Part shown: one piece after another, positions 22,347 through 63,499 of the stretch
How positions within the stretch are numbered: the stretch's first letter is position 1
How the letters are laid out: every line of letters starts with the position of its first letter
DNA from: Cryobacterium sinapicolor
Lineage (GTDB): Bacteria > Actinomycetota > Actinomycetes > Actinomycetales > Microbacteriaceae
Reading direction: 5' to 3'
Assembly: GCF_004403465.1 (NCBI RefSeq)
Contig: NZ_SOGQ01000009.1
Location: forward strand, 344 to 64,343
Length of the DNA stretch: 64,000 nucleotides
Notes under the pieces: model-generated
The model's input: the letters and a program-made list of their open reading frames with translations, nothing else
What the model was told of the DNA's origin: nothing
Database searches by the model: none
Translations under genes and position numbers: made by a program

Positions 22347-23126
22347 CTAGGTCTGGCAGCGCGGGCACCAGTAGGTGACCCGCAGTTCGAGCTCGGTGCG
22401 GCCGAGCCGGCCCTGCTCGACCGCGGTACCGCAGCGCCGGCAGGGCTGGTCGGCCCGGCCGAAGACCCAGCTCTGCATGCCGCGCCGGGCGTTGCCGGTC
22501 GTGATCCGCTCCGTGCGGTCGCGGTTCGCCAGGATCAGCCGGCGGGCGAGTGCGACGAGGCCTGGGACATCCGTCACCTCGGCCACCGGCCGGGTCGGCA
22601 GCAGCCCGCGCAGGAAGCACAGCTCGTTCACGTATTCGTTGCCGAGCCCGGCGAGGTTGCCCTGGTCGGCGAGCGCCACAGCGATGGGACGGTCCGGCCG
22701 GAATTCGAGCCGGCGCACGGCTTCGGCCGCGTCCCAGTCGGGACCGAGCAGGTCAGGCCCGAGGTAGTCGAGCAGGGCGGTCTCCCGCGTGAGCGGAACC
22801 ACCTCGAGCAGCCCGAGTTCGAAACCTACGGCCACCCACTCCGCCGTTTCGAGCACGATGCGCGCCTGGAACGCTGGGCGGCGCCACGTGCTCCCGTGCC
22901 GATACAGGTGCCACGATCCCTCCATTTTCAGGTGCGAGTGGATGCTGGCCTCCCCCACGCGCATCAGCAGGTGCTTGCCGCGGCTGAGAACCTCGTGCAC
23001 GGTCTGCCCGGTCAGGTCGACGGTGGCGAACGCCGGCACGCGCACGTCGCAGCGGGTGAGCCGGGCGCCGGCAAGGGCCTGGTCGAGGTTCCGCGCGGTG
23101 CGGTAGACGGTGTCACCCTCAGGCAT
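22347..23126 (-). CDS. nei: Fpg/Nei-family DNA glycosylase-AP lyase
   Basis: 259-residue base-excision enzyme for oxidised bases. Starts MPEGDTV, exposing the catalytic Pro2-Glu3 pair; has the conserved SHLKMEGSW lysine loop, the helix-two-turn-helix GLGNEYVNELCFL and a C-terminal zinc finger with cysteines CRRC and CPRC. MPEGDTV rather than MPELPEV places it with Nei2-like enzymes. It overlaps the lhr stop by 8 nt, the same lhr-nei pairing as in mycobacteria (Rv3296-Rv3297, from memory). Confidence 0.92.
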   Translation of the reverse strand: MPEGDTVYRTARNLDQALAGARLTRCDVRVPAFATVDLTGQTVHEVLSRGKHLLMRVGEASIHSHLKMEGSWHLYRHGSTWRRPAFQARIVLETAEWVAVGFELGLLEVVPLTRETALLDYLGPDLLGPDWDAAEAVRRLEFRPDRPIAVALADQGNLAGLGNEYVNELCFLRGLLPTRPVAEVTDVPGLVALARRLILANRDRTERITTGNARRGMQSWVFGRADQPCRRCGTAVEQGRLGRTELELRVTYWCPRCQT

Positions 23127-26100
23127 GCAGCTTCACTCCCCGCGGGGTGATGCCGAATCCGGCCGCGAGCAGGGCGGTGCCCACCGCGGTGCCGATCACG
23201 AATACCCCGTTGACGGTCTCCACGCCGAGCTTCGGAACCCGCCCGGAGGTGACCGTGCGGGCGAGGGCGGCGGCGGCGGCCGTCACAACGGCATCCGGTT
23301 CGGTGACGGCCCCGATGACGGGCCGACCGGCCGGTTGAGCATTTCCATCGGCTCCGTCCTCGGACGCTCCGTCGAACGTGAGCACGGTCTTGCCGCCGCG
23401 TTCGACGTAGAGCACGAGTGCCCCGTCGACCAGCACGACGAGCGCGCCGGCTTTTCGCCCCGGGCGGTGCCCGGTGCCCTCCGGCAGCGGCGGCCAGGGC
23501 AGCACCGAGCCGTACGGGTTGGCCGGGTCGGTGGCGGCGAGGGTGATCGCCACCGGTTCCGGATGCTGCGCCTCGGCGACAGAGGACCGGAGCCGGTCGA
23601 TCGTGCCGGCCGTCGCGAATTGGGCGGCCCCGAGCCCCTCGATGAAGTAGCCGCGGCGGCAGCGCCCCATCTCCTCGAAGCCGCTGAGGGTGCGGTAGAC
23701 GAGGGCGAAACCGCCGGTCACGCCCTCCCCCATGACCGCACCGCGGGTGACGACCCCGTAGCGCTCCAGCAGGGTCTCGCCGAGGGCGTGCGCCCGCCGG
23801 GTAGGCGAGTCGTCGGCGGCCGGCACGATCGACCAGCGACCGGAGACGGTCGGCGGCCCTGTGCGGGAGGGCAGGGTGCCGCGCGCGGGGACGCGCCCGC
23901 CGTGCAGCCGGGCCCGCGGGGCTGCCCGGCGGGTGCTGTGCGCCGCGCGCCCGCCGGAAAGCAGTGCGCGCACGGGGGCGAAGGTGTCGTTGCCCACCAG
24001 CCCCGCCCAGACCAGGTCCCAGAGGGCGGCGGCCAGGCCGGCGTCGTCCTGGCTGCCGACGGCATCCGCGAGCTGTCGGAAGAAAAAGGCTCCGCCGCCG
24101 GCCAGGGTGGTCAGGATTTCCTGCTGCAGCGCCGTGGTCTCCAGGGGGGTGGGCAGCGGCAGGGTGAGCGGCGCGGTCTCGCGTAGGTGCAGGCTGATCC
24201 AGCCGTCGTTGCCGGCCAGCGTGCCGGCGCCGGCCCAGAGCACCTCGCCGGTGTTGGTGAGCTCGTCGAGCAGGCCCGGCCGGTAGTCGACGACGCGCGA
24301 CGGCAGCACGAGGGTCTCCCAGGCGGATGCCGGGATGCGTGCCCCCTCCAACTGCTCGATCACGGATGCGACCCCGTCGATGCCGCGCAGGCGCCCGCCC
24401 ACGTGCTGCCAATCCGGCAGGAACCGGCCGATCGTGACCTGATCGACCGGCTCGACCTCGTGCCGCAGCGCGGCCAGGGACCGGCGGCGCAGACGGCGCA
24501 GCACCTCGGCGTCGCACCACTCACTGCCGGTGCCGTGCGGGCGGAACTCACCCTCGAGGAGCCGGCGGGACCCGGCGAGCCGCCGGAGGGCGACGAGCGC
24601 CACGGCCGGGCCGAGCCCGAAACGCGCGGCCACGTCGGCGAGGGTGAACGGGCCGTGGGTGCGGGCGTACCGGCTGACCAGGTCGCCGAGCGGGTCGGGC
24701 ACCGGTTCGGTGAACACTGCCGGGACCCCCTGCGGCAGGGGGACGCCGAGCGCGTCGCGGAGCCGGGCGGAGTCCTCGATGGCCGCCCACCACTGCTGCC
24801 CGGCGAAACCGACCGGGATGATGCGCCGGGCCTCGGACAGAACCTGCAGACCCTCGGCGGCGCCCGGGGACACGGCCGGGTCGAGGCGCTCGGCCACCTC
24901 CGCGGTGGTGAGCGGCCCGAGCTGGCGGAGCAGGTCGGCGATGCCCTCGACCCCGCGCGCCTTCCGGTCGGCAGGCAGCCGCTGCAGTTCCAGGTCGGTC
25001 TGCTCGATCACGGCCGGGTCGAGCAGCTCCCGCAGCTCCACCCGGCCGAGCAACTCGGCCAGCAGGCTGGAGTCGAGCGAGAGGGCGGTCGCGCGGCGCT
25101 CGGCGAGCGGGGAATCTCCCTCGTACATGAACGCGGCCACGTAGCCGAAGAGGAGGGTGCTCGCGAACGGACTCGCGGCATCCGTCTGGGTTTCGACCAG
25201 GCGCAGGGCGCGACTGTCGATGCGGCGGGTGAGGGCCATCAGCGCGGGCAGGTCGTAGACGTCCTGCAGGCACTCGCGCACGGTTTCGAGGATGATCGGG
25301 AAGGTCGGGAAGGCGCGGGCCACGTCAAGCAGCTGCGCGGCCTTCTGCCGCTGCTGCCACAGCGGTGACCGGCGGCCCGGGTTGTAGCGCGGGAGCAGTA
25401 GCGCCCGCGCGGCGCACTCTCGGAACCGGGCGGCGAACAGGGCCGACCCGCCGACCTCGTCGGTGACCACCTGTTCGAGCTCCGCCGGGTCGAACACAAA
25501 GAGGGAACTGCCGGGCGGGTCCGACTCGGTGTCGGGGATGCGAACGACGATGCCGTCGTCGCTGGCGACGCAGGCACCGTCGAGCCCGTAGCGTTCGCGC
25601 ACCCGGGCACCCACGGCGAGGGACCAGGGGGCGTGCACCTGCAGGCCGAACGGGGAGTGCAGAACCACTCGCCAGTCGCCGAGTTCGTCCCGGAACCGCT
25701 CGACGATGAGGGTGCGGTCGGTGGGCACCTGGCCAGTCGCGGCCCGCTGCTCGGCGAGGAAGGCCAGGAGGTTGTCCACGGCCCGTTCATCGAGGCCGCC
25801 GGCCCGGCAGCGCACCCGGGCCTCTGCGACCGGGAGCGCCGAGACCTCGCGCAGGAAGGCGCCGATCGCCTCGCCCAGTTCGGCGGGCCGGCCGAGGCCG
25901 TCGCCCTTCCAGAACGGCAGCCGCCCGGGCTCGCCGAAGGCCGGCAGCACGAGCACCCGGTCGTGGGTGATCTCCTGAATACGCCAGCTCGTCGTGCCGA
26001 GGGCGAAGACGTCGCCGACCCGGGATTCGTAGACCATCTCCTCGTCGAGCTCACCCACGCGGCGACCGGTCACCTGGTCGCCGCCGACCATGAAGACGCC

Positions 26101-27813
26101 GAACAGGCCGCGGTCGGGGATCGTGCCGCCGCTGGTCACCGCGAGCCGTTGGGCACCCGGCCGCCCGGTGAGGATGCCCGTTTCCCGGTCCCAGACGATG
26201 CGCGGGCGCAGCTCGGCGAATTGGTCGGAGGGGTACCGGCCGGCGAGCAGGTCGAGGGTGGCCTCGTAGGCCGAACGCGGGAGGGAGTGGAAGGGGGCGC
26301 TGCGGCGCACGGTGTCGAACCACGCCTCGGCGTGGATGGGTTCGAGGGCGGTCGCCGCGACGGTCTGCTGGGCGAGGATGTCGAGCGGGTTGGACGGCAC
26401 CTGGAGGGATTCGATCAGGCCGGCGGCCATGCGCTCGGCCGCGACGGCCGCATGGATGAGATCGGCCCGGTGCTTGGGGAAGATCACGCCGCGGGAGACC
26501 TCGCCGACCTGGTGCCCCGCCCGGCCGATCCGTTGCAGCCCGCTGGCGACGGACGGCGGCGACTCCACCTGCACGACCAGGTCGACGGCGCCCATGTCGA
26601 TGCCGAGCTCCAGGCTGGAGGTGGCCACCACGCAGCGCAGCCGCCCGGCTTTGAGATCGTCTTCGATCACCGCGCGCTGCTCCTTGCTGACGGAGCCGTG
26701 GTGGGCGCGGGCGAGCAGCGGCTCGGCCCCGGCGCTCTGTCCGCCGGCCCCCATGACAGCGGCCGGCGGGGCGGATGCGGCAGCACCGGCGGGTACCAGG
26801 GCCGGCAGCGGCTCGGGCAGTAGCGCGGGCAGCAGCTCGTCTTCCAGTCGCTGGGCGTAGATCTCGTTGAAGCGCGCGGTCAGTCGTTCGGTCAGCCGGC
26901 GGGAGTTCGCGAACACGATAGAGGAGGTGTGCGCGAGCACCGCGTCCACGATCGCCTCCTCCACATGCGGCCAGATGGAACCGGTCTGCGGGGCGGCGGC
27001 AGCCGTCGACCCCTCCCGCACGGGAGCCGGACCGACCTGGCTCATGTCGTCGACGGGGACGACCACGCTGAGGTCGAATCGCTTGGTCGACACCGGAGCG
27101 ACGATCTCCACCGGAGCGGAGCCGCCGAGGAACCGGGCCACCTCGGCGGCCGGCCGCACGGTGGCCGACAGTCCGATCCGCTGCGCCGGCCGGGTGAGCA
27201 GGTCGTCGAGCCGCTCCAGGGAGACGGCCAGGTGCGCGCCGCGCTTGCTGGCCGCGACCGCGTGCACCTCGTCGATGATGACCGTGTCCACGTCGCGCAA
27301 CGATTCCCGCGCAGCCGAGGTGAGCATGAGGAACAGCGATTCAGGTGTGGTGATGAGGATGTCCGGCGGCGTCTTCACCAGGGTGCGGCGCTCGGCGGCC
27401 GGGGTGTCCCCCGACCGCACGCCGACGCTCACCCGGGGCGGGGCGAACCCGAGGCGCTCGGCGGCCTGGCCGATGCCGACCAGCGGGGCACGCAGGTTGC
27501 GTTCCACGTCGACGCCGAGCGCCTTGAGCGGCGAGATGTAGAGAACGCGGGTTCCCGGAACGGTGACCCGGCCGGGCTGCGGCACGGCGGCATCCGTGGC
27601 CTTCGAGGCAGCCGACGCATCCGAGGCCAGGCGGTCGATAGCCCAGAGGAATGCGGCGAGGGTCTTGCCGGACCCGGTGGGAGCCACGACCAGCGCATGG
27701 GAGCCACGGGAGATGGCGTCCCACGCCCCGAGCTGAGCCTCGGTGGGTGCGGCAAAGGCCTGCGCGAACCAGGCGCGGGTGGCCGGCGTAAATCGGTGCA
27801 GAACCTCGTTCAT
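23119..27813 (-). CDS. lhr: ATP-dependent helicase Lhr, long form
   Basis: 1564-residue superfamily 2 helicase; the long bacterial Lhr is a 3'-5' ssDNA translocase induced by DNA damage in mycobacteria. Walker A APTGSGKT at residues 44-51, DEVH box at 181-184, SAT-like LSATVRP near 210 and motif VI RIGRAGHQ near 450 are intact. Central Lhr-core/winged-helix regions follow, then about 700 residues of the long-Lhr C-terminal extension. Start ATG 27813 has AAGGATGG upstream. Operon partner nei suggests oxidative or crosslink repair. Confidence 0.94.
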   Translation of the reverse strand: MNEVLHRFTPATRAWFAQAFAAPTEAQLGAWDAISRGSHALVVAPTGSGKTLAAFLWAIDRLASDASAASKATDAAVPQPGRVTVPGTRVLYISPLKALGVDVERNLRAPLVGIGQAAERLGFAPPRVSVGVRSGDTPAAERRTLVKTPPDILITTPESLFLMLTSAARESLRDVDTVIIDEVHAVAASKRGAHLAVSLERLDDLLTRPAQRIGLSATVRPAAEVARFLGGSAPVEIVAPVSTKRFDLSVVVPVDDMSQVGPAPVREGSTAAAAPQTGSIWPHVEEAIVDAVLAHTSSIVFANSRRLTERLTARFNEIYAQRLEDELLPALLPEPLPALVPAGAAASAPPAAVMGAGGQSAGAEPLLARAHHGSVSKEQRAVIEDDLKAGRLRCVVATSSLELGIDMGAVDLVVQVESPPSVASGLQRIGRAGHQVGEVSRGVIFPKHRADLIHAAVAAERMAAGLIESLQVPSNPLDILAQQTVAATALEPIHAEAWFDTVRRSAPFHSLPRSAYEATLDLLAGRYPSDQFAELRPRIVWDRETGILTGRPGAQRLAVTSGGTIPDRGLFGVFMVGGDQVTGRRVGELDEEMVYESRVGDVFALGTTSWRIQEITHDRVLVLPAFGEPGRLPFWKGDGLGRPAELGEAIGAFLREVSALPVAEARVRCRAGGLDERAVDNLLAFLAEQRAATGQVPTDRTLIVERFRDELGDWRVVLHSPFGLQVHAPWSLAVGARVRERYGLDGACVASDDGIVVRIPDTESDPPGSSLFVFDPAELEQVVTDEVGGSALFAARFRECAARALLLPRYNPGRRSPLWQQRQKAAQLLDVARAFPTFPIILETVRECLQDVYDLPALMALTRRIDSRALRLVETQTDAASPFASTLLFGYVAAFMYEGDSPLAERRATALSLDSSLLAELLGRVELRELLDPAVIEQTDLELQRLPADRKARGVEGIADLLRQLGPLTTAEVAERLDPAVSPGAAEGLQVLSEARRIIPVGFAGQQWWAAIEDSARLRDALGVPLPQGVPAVFTEPVPDPLGDLVSRYARTHGPFTLADVAARFGLGPAVALVALRRLAGSRRLLEGEFRPHGTGSEWCDAEVLRRLRRRSLAALRHEVEPVDQVTIGRFLPDWQHVGGRLRGIDGVASVIEQLEGARIPASAWETLVLPSRVVDYRPGLLDELTNTGEVLWAGAGTLAGNDGWISLHLRETAPLTLPLPTPLETTALQQEILTTLAGGGAFFFRQLADAVGSQDDAGLAAALWDLVWAGLVGNDTFAPVRALLSGGRAAHSTRRAAPRARLHGGRVPARGTLPSRTGPPTVSGRWSIVPAADDSPTRRAHALGETLLERYGVVTRGAVMGEGVTGGFALVYRTLSGFEEMGRCRRGYFIEGLGAAQFATAGTIDRLRSSVAEAQHPEPVAITLAATDPANPYGSVLPWPPLPEGTGHRPGRKAGALVVLVDGALVLYVERGGKTVLTFDGASEDGADGNAQPAGRPVIGAVTEPDAVVTAAAAALARTVTSGRVPKLGVETVNGVFVIGTAVGTALLAAGFGITPRGVKLHA

Positions 27814-27861
27814 ACGTCCATCCTTGCTGATCCGTCTGACAGCACCCACCGCGCCCGTTCG

Positions 27862-27946
27862 AACGAATTCGACGGAGATTTTGAGTCAAACACCACTTTT
27901 GGAGCCCAAACGTGGCGTTCGGGGCAAAATCTCCGTCGAATTCGTT
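27862..27946. repeat. 85-nt hairpin element, copy A
   Basis: Perfect 22-nt inverted ends at 27862-27883 and 27925-27946, core GAATTCGACGGAGATTTTG. The stem is interrupted by 5-nt symmetric bulges, then resumes as AACACCAC/GTGGCGTT with one mismatch around a 15-nt loop. It lies between the SseB-like gene and lhr. Copies B and C are at 39450 and 63415. Confidence 0.85.
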
Positions 27947-38816: not shown

Positions 38817-39428
38817 ATGCCTTCCGACCACTACTTCACCCCGGCACCCGACAGCACCCTGAAACTCCGTCAGGTGACCGTGCACTTGCATGGTGCGGAA
38901 CACGAGCTGACCACGGCCAATGCGGTCTTCAGCCCGGAGCACATCGACACCGGCACCCAGGTGCTCCTGAACAACGCGCCGACCCCGCCGCCCGGCGGCG
39001 ATTTCCTCGACCTGGGCTGCGGCTGGGGTCCGATCAGCCTGCACCTGGCCCTCGCGTCACCCCGTGCCACGATCTGGGCCGTCGACGTGAATGAGCGGGC
39101 GCTCGATCTGGTGCGGCGAAACGCCGAGAAGCTTGGCCTCACCAACGTCACGGCGGTGCTGCCCGACCAGGTGCCCGAGCACGTGACCTTCCGTACCATC
39201 TGGTCGAATCCCCCGATCCGCGTCGGCAAGACCGAACTGCACTCCCTGCTGCGCACCTGGCTGCCGCGCCTGGAACCGGGTTCGGATGCCTGGCTCGTCG
39301 TGCAGCGCAACCTCGGCTCCGATTCCCTGCAGCGCTGGCTCGACGGCGACCTGCCCGACGAATTCAGCACCGCGCGGCACGCCATCAGCAAGGGCTTCCG
39401 GGTTCTGCGGGTCCAGCGCCAGGACTAG
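38817..39428 (+). CDS. RsmC-like class I methyltransferase
   Basis: 203 residues, the size of a single-domain RsmC/MTS-type enzyme. Motif I FLDLGCGWGPISLHLA near residue 62 binds S-adenosylmethionine; motif IV SNPPIRVGKTELH near 125 is of the N-PP-[YF/I] kind used for exocyclic amino groups of guanine or adenine. Substrate is probably 16S rRNA guanine, by similarity. Divergent from the ribosome GTPase hflX, which fits a ribosome role. Confidence 0.88.
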   Translation: MPSDHYFTPAPDSTLKLRQVTVHLHGAEHELTTANAVFSPEHIDTGTQVLLNNAPTPPPGGDFLDLGCGWGPISLHLALASPRATIWAVDVNERALDLVRRNAEKLGLTNVTAVLPDQVPEHVTFRTIWSNPPIRVGKTELHSLLRTWLPRLEPGSDAWLVVQRNLGSDSLQRWLDGDLPDEFSTARHAISKGFRVLRVQRQD

Positions 39429-39449
39429 TCGCGCCCTGGTCCGGCGTCG

Positions 39450-39534
39450 AACCAATTCGACGGAGATTTTGGGTCAAACACCCGTTCCTGAGCCGTGGCG
39501 CGCTGTTCAGAGCAAAATCTCCGTCGAATTCGTT
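39450..39534. repeat. 85-nt hairpin element, copy B
   Basis: Arms 39450-39471 and 39513-39534 pair at 21 of 22 positions, core ATTCGACGGAGATTTTG. Inner AACA/TGTT pairing is kept though the bases differ from copy A. Lies between the convergent methyltransferase and dapF genes. Confidence 0.85.
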
Positions 39535-39579
39535 CGGGACTGAACCGCGTCGCGGTCCGCGGGCGACCCCGGGCACGGC

Positions 39580-40461
39580 TCAGCCGAGGCGGAAGACCCC
39601 GTCGAAGACGAGGTCCGCCGGGCCCGAGAGTGAGACGTGCTCGCCGTCCTCGGTCGGGAACATGCGCACGCCGAGCGTGCCGCCGGTGACCTCGACCTGC
39701 CACTGGTTGGGTGCACCCGCGCCGGCCCAGTGCCGGGTGGCGAGGGCCGCGGCGGCCGCACCGGTGCCGCAGGAGAGGGTTTCGCCGCTACCGCGCTCGT
39801 GCACGCGCATCCGGATATGGCCGACGCCGTTCACGACCAGCGGATCGCCCGGCAACACGAACTCGACGTTCGCGCCGGCCGCCGGGTCCGGGTCGATCTG
39901 GGGCACGAAGGTGAGATCGACGCCGGCGAGCTCGTCGTCGTCGGCGAGGGCCACGACCACGTGCGGGTTGCCCACGTTGATGCCGAGGCCGGGCCGGGCC
40001 ACTGCCAGGTTCTTCGCCCGAACCAGCGGTTCCCCGCCGTCCAGGCGCCACCGGCCGAGGTCGACCTGATAGCCGTTCGCGCCGCGCTGCACGTCCCGCA
40101 CTCCCCCGCGGGTGCCGATGCAGAGCGTGTCGCCTCGGTCGAGCGTGGCCAGACCCTGCTCCACCAGGAACCGCGTGTACACGCGGATGCCGTTGCCGCA
40201 CATCTCGGACACCGTGCCGTCGGCGTTCCAGTAGTCCATGAACCATTCGGCAGCGTCGTCCTCGGCGAGAGCGGCCGCGCCGGCGGCCAGGCTGGTCGAG
40301 CGCACGGCCCGGATGATGCCGTCGCCGCCGATGCCGAAGCGGCGGTCGCAGATCGCGCGGATCTGGCTCGGGGTGGGCTCGATCTGCCCGTCAGGGTCGG
40401 AGAAGAGCACGAAGTCGTTCCCGGTGCCGTGGCCCTTGGTGAAGTTCAGATCAATACCCAT
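39580..40461 (-). CDS. dapF: Diaminopimelate epimerase
   Basis: Cofactor-free epimerase making meso-DAP for lysine and peptidoglycan. The two catalytic cysteines are Cys88 ([14 protein letters not shown]) and Cys231 ([13 protein letters not shown]). Starts [20 protein letters not shown]; 293 residues. TAAACT 7 nt before the ATG overlaps the miaA stop codon, so dapF seems to have its own leaderless promoter at the end of the miaB-miaA run. Confidence 0.96.
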
Positions 40462-63414: not shown

Positions 63415-63499
63415 AACGAATTCGACGGAAATTATGCCGGAATCGACGCCAAACCGGGAGAGAAACCGCTCTCACATCACAATCTCCGTCGAATTGGTC
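63415..63499. repeat. 85-nt hairpin element, copy C (diverged)
   Basis: Same 85-nt length; arms 63415-63436 and 63478-63499 keep the AATTCGACGG / CCGTCGAATT core, with several changes elsewhere and an unrelated interior. Lies between convergent prfC and the penicillin-binding protein gene. Confidence 0.8.

Follow-up and report, generated by a model that had tools for sequence, protein, structure and literature searches.

The window analysed here, a stretch of 64,000 nucleotides from Cryobacterium sinapicolor, carries three copies (A, B and C) of an inverted repeat. The initial annotation had placed them at 27862-27946, 39450-39534 and 63415-63499, each exactly 85 nt long and intergenic, and both statements were confirmed, the first by re-reading the window and the second by open reading frames and Pfam matches. 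The neighbours of copy A, both encoded on the minus strand (ORFs, Pfam), are an SseB-domain gene and a gene for an Lhr-type helicase; the copy lies about 12 bp upstream of the longest helicase ORF (23119-27849). An alternative ORF at 27341-27814 was rejected as the neighbour of copy A because this helicase ORF is the better gene. Copy B is flanked by a methyltransferase-domain gene and a diaminopimelate epimerase-domain gene in convergent orientation, and copy C follows a release-factor-3-like gene. The features are as follows, with G numbers denoting other genomes:

27862..27946, unstranded: copy A, whole 85-nt element; orthologous site occupied in G028, G009, G010, G039 and G007
27862..27883, plus strand: copy A left arm, 22 nt; 18-mer AATTCGACGGAGATTTTG without mismatch
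27884..27924, unstranded: copy A interior, 41 nt; AT 0.92 in peak columns and 0.26 in troughs (L232)
27925..27946, minus strand: copy A right arm, 22 nt; 18-mer without mismatch
39450..39534, unstranded: copy B, whole element, in a convergent gap; orthologous site empty in G009, G028, G007, G010 and G003
39450..39471, plus strand: copy B left arm, AACC variant; 18-mer without mismatch
39472..39512, unstranded: copy B interior
39513..39534, minus strand: copy B right arm; 18-mer without mismatch
63415..63499, unstranded: copy C, whole element, in a convergent gap; orthologous site occupied in G007, G028, G039 and G030
63415..63436, plus strand: copy C left arm; 18-mer with two mismatches
63437..63477, unstranded: copy C interior; AT 0.75 in peak columns and 0.26 in troughs (L212)
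63478..63499, minus strand: copy C right arm; 18-mer with one mismatch

The 18-mer AATTCGACGGAGATTTTG has six matches in the window at up to three mismatches, compared with 0.01 expected. The common arm core that had been proposed for the three copies thus held in part: copies A and B carry the 18-mer without mismatch in both arms, although preceded by different bases (AACG in copy A, AACC in the left arm of copy B), and in copy C three of its positions deviate, summed over both arms.

A search of the genome to which the window belongs (3.53 Mb, 96 contigs) with the arm 15-mer at up to two mismatches gave 131 forward and 132 reverse matches, with none for the reversed-pattern control, and among the matches listed many formed inverted pairs 62 bp apart, i.e. 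an 85-nt element. Chance similarity between three sequences, which the initial annotation had kept as an alternative should further copies be lacking, is therefore rejected, and the three window copies are members of a large dispersed family with more than 100 copies in some genomes. The single-contig genome G008 has 106 arm places. When 57 genomes of the genus were scanned with the 18-mer at up to two mismatches, 25 had at least one match and the reversed controls none; 19 of the 57 had matches on both strands (7 to 294 in total each), six had a single match and 32 had no match at all, so the repeat family is not essential. Of 398 genomes sampled across the taxonomic family, 34 had a match, and in the 29 of these that lie outside the genus the 32 matches were all at two mismatches, at most three per genome and never paired, the reversed control giving three. 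A scan of named genomes returned at least 94 stretches, and among the 80 matches listed 76 were from Cryobacterium and four from Glaciibacter superstes. The repeat family is lineage-limited. Plasmids and phages gave no match to the one 85-nt query used, and no Rfam family reached its gathering threshold in the window. In the papers listed, mostly open-access, on palindromic repeats and MITEs in Cryobacterium, Microbacteriaceae and actinobacteria, on phased or curved DNA and on bending at transposon ends, no description of the element was found (the accessible text of PMC12306157 included), and in the accessible portion of PMC7381226 the word 'palindromic' is used for CRISPR only.

Each copy consists of two inverted 22-nt arms with the core AATTCGACGGAGATT around a 41-bp interior; the ends read AAC.../...GTT, and CGTC occurs inside the arm and not at its terminus. 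Among 241 distinct copies, some of them collected from 94 stretches found with a pattern permitting 79-91 nt only, 211 were 85 nt long, 23 were 86 nt, two were 87 nt, and lengths of 80, 84, 92, 94 and 95 nt were each found once. For the copies of the window's own genome in the stretches read (n = 44, excluding a 408-nt row in which two neighbouring copies were joined) the corresponding numbers were 42 of 85 nt, one of 86 nt and one of 95 nt, which shows that the identical length of the three window copies is a property of the family. The 95-nt copy of L008 and the 94-nt copy of L292 are longer by about one helical turn, an observation limited to these two copies.

A single letter predominated at arm positions 7-16, 18 and 19, where 97.7-100% of the 221 copies with a length of 84-87 nt carried it, and at position 17, where 91% did, positions 1, 4, 20 and 22 being variable. 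This invariance is partly a matter of ascertainment because the copies were collected through arm matches at up to three mismatches (in G008 GACGGAG was required in both arms), and the set found through flanking DNA, described below, is fairer. In 148 oriented copies a few bases immediately beyond the arms are conserved as well, mostly G to the left and [C/A]GGG to the right. In G008, where two of 45 rows (84 nt) were excluded as chance matches to leave 43 copies, either arm may have A or T at position 17, and 13 of the 43 copies are 86 nt long. Related interiors were also seen by eye in this genome in both orientations relative to the arms (L252-L291).

The 41 bases of the interior are variable, with a mean best identity between own-genome copies of 17.9 of 41, and what they share is a rhythm. 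AT content peaks near element positions 28, 38, 48 and 58, continuous with AT-rich arm segments near 18 and 68; in the 94 named-genome copies it was 0.82-0.88 at these four positions and 0.07-0.31 at 31-35, 41-45 and 51-55, and the flanks had 0.13-0.40 and no rhythm. The power at 10 bp was 7.38 in 42 own-genome copies compared with 2.80 ± 0.22 in shuffles, and 7.26 for the whole family compared with 2.43 in 424 flanking pieces, the coherent period being 10.0 bp. In G008 the rhythm is present but broader. Curvature predicted with a wedge model was 1.065, versus 1.020 for base-shuffled sequences and 1.012 for flanks, and by the same model 65% of 172 copies exceeded the 95th percentile of their shuffles. 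The rhythm is symmetric about the dyad, with AT about 5, 15 and 25 bp to either side of the centre and GC at the dyad itself. In DNA that positions nucleosomes, AT minor grooves occur at about these same distances from the dyad; the element resembles such DNA in this respect and differs from it in being 85 bp long, bacterial and enclosed by sequence-specific inverted arms. The conserved features of the family are the sequence of each arm, the spacing and the 10-bp AT/GC rhythm, the last of which was absent from the initial annotation. Two copies in L040, at 2053 and 2376, lie 323 bp apart with interiors alike at 38 of 41 positions and are likely a local duplication.

The inner pairing that had been noticed in copies A and B can be seen in these two copies but is not general over 42 own-genome copies. 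Across the dyad of these copies 293 of 840 interior positions could pair, compared with 315 ± 12 in column shuffles, and the control with swapped right halves gave 272 of 798 versus 296 ± 15. No covariation was found in the 41-nt interior. The arms behave in a mixed manner: positions 2, 3, 5 and 6 covary, i.e. the two arms agree more often than by chance, and positions 17 and 20, at which genomes differ, also agree above chance, whereas at position 4 the arms agree less than chance over the family (69 compared with 104.5), and in G008 the letters at position 17 differ between the arms in 27 of 43 copies, giving a mispair in the stem. The covariation in the arms could stem from variants of particular lineages, or from both arms being read by one protein. 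The compensatory changes in stem and inner stem by which a structured RNA would be recognised were thus missing from the interior and mixed in the arms, and the earlier suggestion of a hairpin under selection was not borne out. With an interior lacking covariation and with stem mispairs tolerated, an RNA or cruciform hairpin is unsupported as the selected feature of this family. A GC-rich stem followed by a T run, as in an intrinsic terminator, was not present at positions 39300-39700 around copy B, and the oriented flank consensus beyond the element is GC-rich without a T run.

The position of the element relative to genes was analysed at 101 loci with a simple GC3 gene caller. The gaps bearing an element were convergent in 42 cases, tandem in 45 and divergent in eight, compared with 48, 145 and 74, respectively, for control gaps of at least 60 bp without an element at the same loci. 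Convergent gaps were enriched (odds ratio 3.6, p = 1.6e-6) and divergent gaps depleted (odds ratio 0.24, p = 5e-5), and the median distance was 43 bp to a stop codon and 101 bp to a start. Eighteen copies fell within ORFs, possibly through errors of the gene caller, and the orientation of the element relative to tandem genes was weakly biased (28 versus 13). The copies are thus enriched behind stop codons and above all between convergent gene pairs.

To follow the element in place, flanking DNA was used to find 15 partner copies, which lie at five loci. They were still recognised by a 10-mer at up to three mismatches per arm, sites without a recognisable element being uncounted; rows with at least five core changes were dropped as misregistered or chance pairs, and duplicate listings were counted once. 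Of the 420 core arm positions in these partners four had changed; 85 nt was the length of 14 of the 15, the other being 94 nt. In 15 ortholog pairs, of which 10 were found by arm matches and some share a member, the arms were 94% identical and the interiors 72% (individual pairs ranging from 0.54 to 0.90); for the flanks the values were 76% over the nearest 40 bp and 90% farther out. Gaps per aligned base amounted to 0.018 in the interiors versus 0.133 in the near flanks. Arms and spacing are thus clearly constrained at resident sites.

The rhythm was equally strong at the sites of copies A and C (11 copies, the window's own two and nine reached through their flanks; AT 0.80 in peaks and 0.18 in troughs) and in 149 copies for which no ortholog was found (0.78 and 0.20). 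The interiors of orthologs had progressed towards independence by 72% in peak and 59% in trough columns, versus 41% in the near flanks. Short-term selection on the rhythm was not seen in these pairs: mismatches that left the AT/GC class unchanged made up 0.345 of all in interiors versus 0.342 and 0.347 in flanks, and just 0.16-0.18 in the peak columns of close interior pairs. Judged by the copies compared, the rhythm persists over the long run without visible short-term selection, and given the absence of class-keeping selection among ortholog interiors it may be imposed at the birth of a copy. At some orthologous sites the interiors have no visible relation, which may be due to repeated insertion, exchange between copies or fast turnover.

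That the element is a dispersed MITE- or REP-like unit, one of the possibilities raised at the outset, is supported by the 131 and 132 arm matches, by the 19 of 57 genomes with several and by empty orthologous sites. Such sites were found for copy B (the five genomes listed above) and for the first copy of L031, which is absent in G009, G039 and G021 and present in G028, G007 and G030. Copies A and B are members of a subfamily whose interior is recognisable and which occupies many non-orthologous sites in several genomes, with some flank shared. At the empty site of copy B the BLAST ends overlap by 5 bp (G009) or 7 bp (G028), which is the single candidate for a target duplication, the flanks at other sites being too changed for one to be read. 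Terminal inverted repeats, non-coding sequence and many copies, as expected of a MITE, are all present. A larger element with the same ends was not noticed in the loci read, which cover part of the genome.

The sites are shared with other palindromes. A family with arms GCGAACTGTGAG, here called family B, occurs at the site of copy B in G018 and in less perfect form in G031 and G056. It gave 64 matches in nine of the 57 genomes (including G018, G035, G038 and G041), their arms being exact by the search pattern, and 58 of the 64 were 59 bp long. Its AT peaks lie symmetrically at 13-16, 22-26, 34-38 and 44-47, and in 58 copies 634 of 928 interior positions paired, compared with 583 ± 13 in shuffles (z 3.8). 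Family B therefore has a fixed length and AT peaks in common with the 85-nt family but not the absence of pairing; since its interior pairs above chance, family B may have a hairpin role at these sites, and generalisation from the 85-nt family is limited. Another family, family C (CGGACAAYTG N18 CARTTGTCCG), was found in 24 of 57 genus genomes with five matches in the window's own genome; it is palindromic by eye, and all matches listed were 38 bp long except one of 42 bp. Its arms CGGACAAYTG are present at the site of copy C in G009 and G010, where this different palindrome family takes the place of the element, and at the site of copy A in G042 and G044. Permissive insertion sites would also explain positions common to different families. 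At the orthologous site of copy B in L185 and L191 (G002, G051) a further palindrome was seen, with ends like GTTCGCGAAAGCGGG and CCCGCTTTCGCGG.

Among known repeats, small MITEs are similar in being non-coding, with inverted ends, present or absent at orthologous sites and lineage-limited; the element differs from them in that no parent was seen in the loci read, the arms are constrained after insertion and the interior is kept as a rhythm and not as a sequence. REPs, according to the available part of PMC3733652, are palindromes of 20-40 bp tagged GTAG or CGTC, the GTAG type being linked to RAYT transposases and the CGTC type having no dedicated transposase, and those of E. coli are gyrase targets. 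As far as that text goes, the element shares with REPs and BIMEs the many dispersed, palindromic, intergenic copies that are often at 3' ends, but at 85 nt and without terminal GTAG or CGTC it does not belong to them; unlike them, it has a phased interior without covariation. A RAYT gene (Y1_Tnp, PF01797) was found in none of the 57 genus genomes, the control search being positive in five of 14 known genomes, and membership among the RAYT-linked, GTAG-type REPs is rejected on this ground.

The explanation that we favour, and to which we give about an even chance, is that the element was dispersed as a mobile repeat and is now a two-arm, phased-bend site of a putative protein. This protein, or one protein together with a general bending factor, would bind each arm by its sequence, the interior would bend around it with AT minor grooves facing inward, and both arms would close one tight loop or be wrapped on one helix face; with less certainty, at gene ends the complex might form a topological or transcription boundary for converging genes. 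We favour a protein site because the length is near-fixed, the interior is phased at 10 bp without covariation, stem mispairs are tolerated, the arms are held in place with rare gaps in the interiors, curvature is predicted and convergent gaps are enriched. The reading is weakened by the absence of short-term selection on the rhythm, by the 32 of 57 genomes without a match, by the covariation of arm positions 2, 3, 5 and 6, and by family B, which keeps its interior pairing at such sites in other species.

The main rival, and possibly the origin of the family, is a small transposon that would need its ends joined. The arms would then be the transposase-binding ends of a miniature transposon so short that a sharp bend is required to bring them together, mobility would be limited to copies that combine a phased interior with the right helical spacing, and the interior would drift after insertion. 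This would account for a rhythm without short-term selection, for presence and absence at orthologous sites and for the non-orthologous sites at which several genomes carry the subfamily of copies A and B, partly with common flank. We consider it rather unlikely: arms of resident copies are nearly invariant while their interiors diverge, the one candidate target duplication is 5-7 bp of overlapping BLAST ends at copy B, the loci read, part of the genome, contain no larger element with the same ends, and plasmids and phages did not match the single 85-nt query. A bidirectional transcription terminator or mRNA 3'-end hairpin would fit the median distance of 43 bp to a stop codon, the preference for convergent gaps and the pairing that family B keeps at the same kind of site, and the predicted folds of the three window copies are stronger than those of shuffled sequences on either strand (z -4.0 to -10.3). 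It is nevertheless improbable, given that the interior does not covary, stem mispairs are tolerated, the arm sequence is invariant although any stem would serve, the stretch around copy B has no terminator-like site and a hairpin gives no reason for a 10-bp rhythm. We assign equally little probability to a strong DNA gyrase site, which, like the gyrase-targeted REPs of E. coli, would clear positive supercoils behind genes. The location of the element fits such a role, and the available text of PMC6379681 describes a symmetric E. coli gyrase motif of 130 bp with GC phased at 10.75 bp in two 47-bp blocks around a 36-bp centre, with cleavage sites enriched downstream of transcribed operons (also discussed in the accessible part of PMC12393610). 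Within the limits of these sources, the element is like the motif in being symmetric, degenerate, GC-phased and situated behind transcribed genes, and it differs in period, in length and in its sequence-specific arms, which the motif with its cleavage centre lacks: the element is one block of 10.0-bp period between fixed arms with flanks free of rhythm, a comparison made with the E. coli motif, from which that of the genus may differ.

A broader proposal, which we regard as speculative and rather doubtful, is that the two-arm bend site exemplifies DNA-shape elements, i.e. nucleosome-like wrapping or looping sites with invariant arms, helical spacing and a sequence-free rhythm, each with a dedicated putative protein at gene ends. 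Given the fixed length and symmetric AT peaks of family B (though it pairs), there may be a class of such elements. An interior kept only as a helical-phase rhythm between invariant arms offers a test bed for selection on DNA shape in bacteria, and effects on supercoiling and convergent transcription are testable, as some genomes have more than 100 copies, mostly at gene ends, and members of the genus differ in whether they carry the family. If instead the mobile reading is true, the element would reveal a physical rule for minimum transposon size.

Near contig ends, four copies of the element are truncated (L005, L017, L033 and L038). In three of them the element passes into a similar sequence, GTCAAGCTG...GAGTCACTT, as if it had been entered by an IS.
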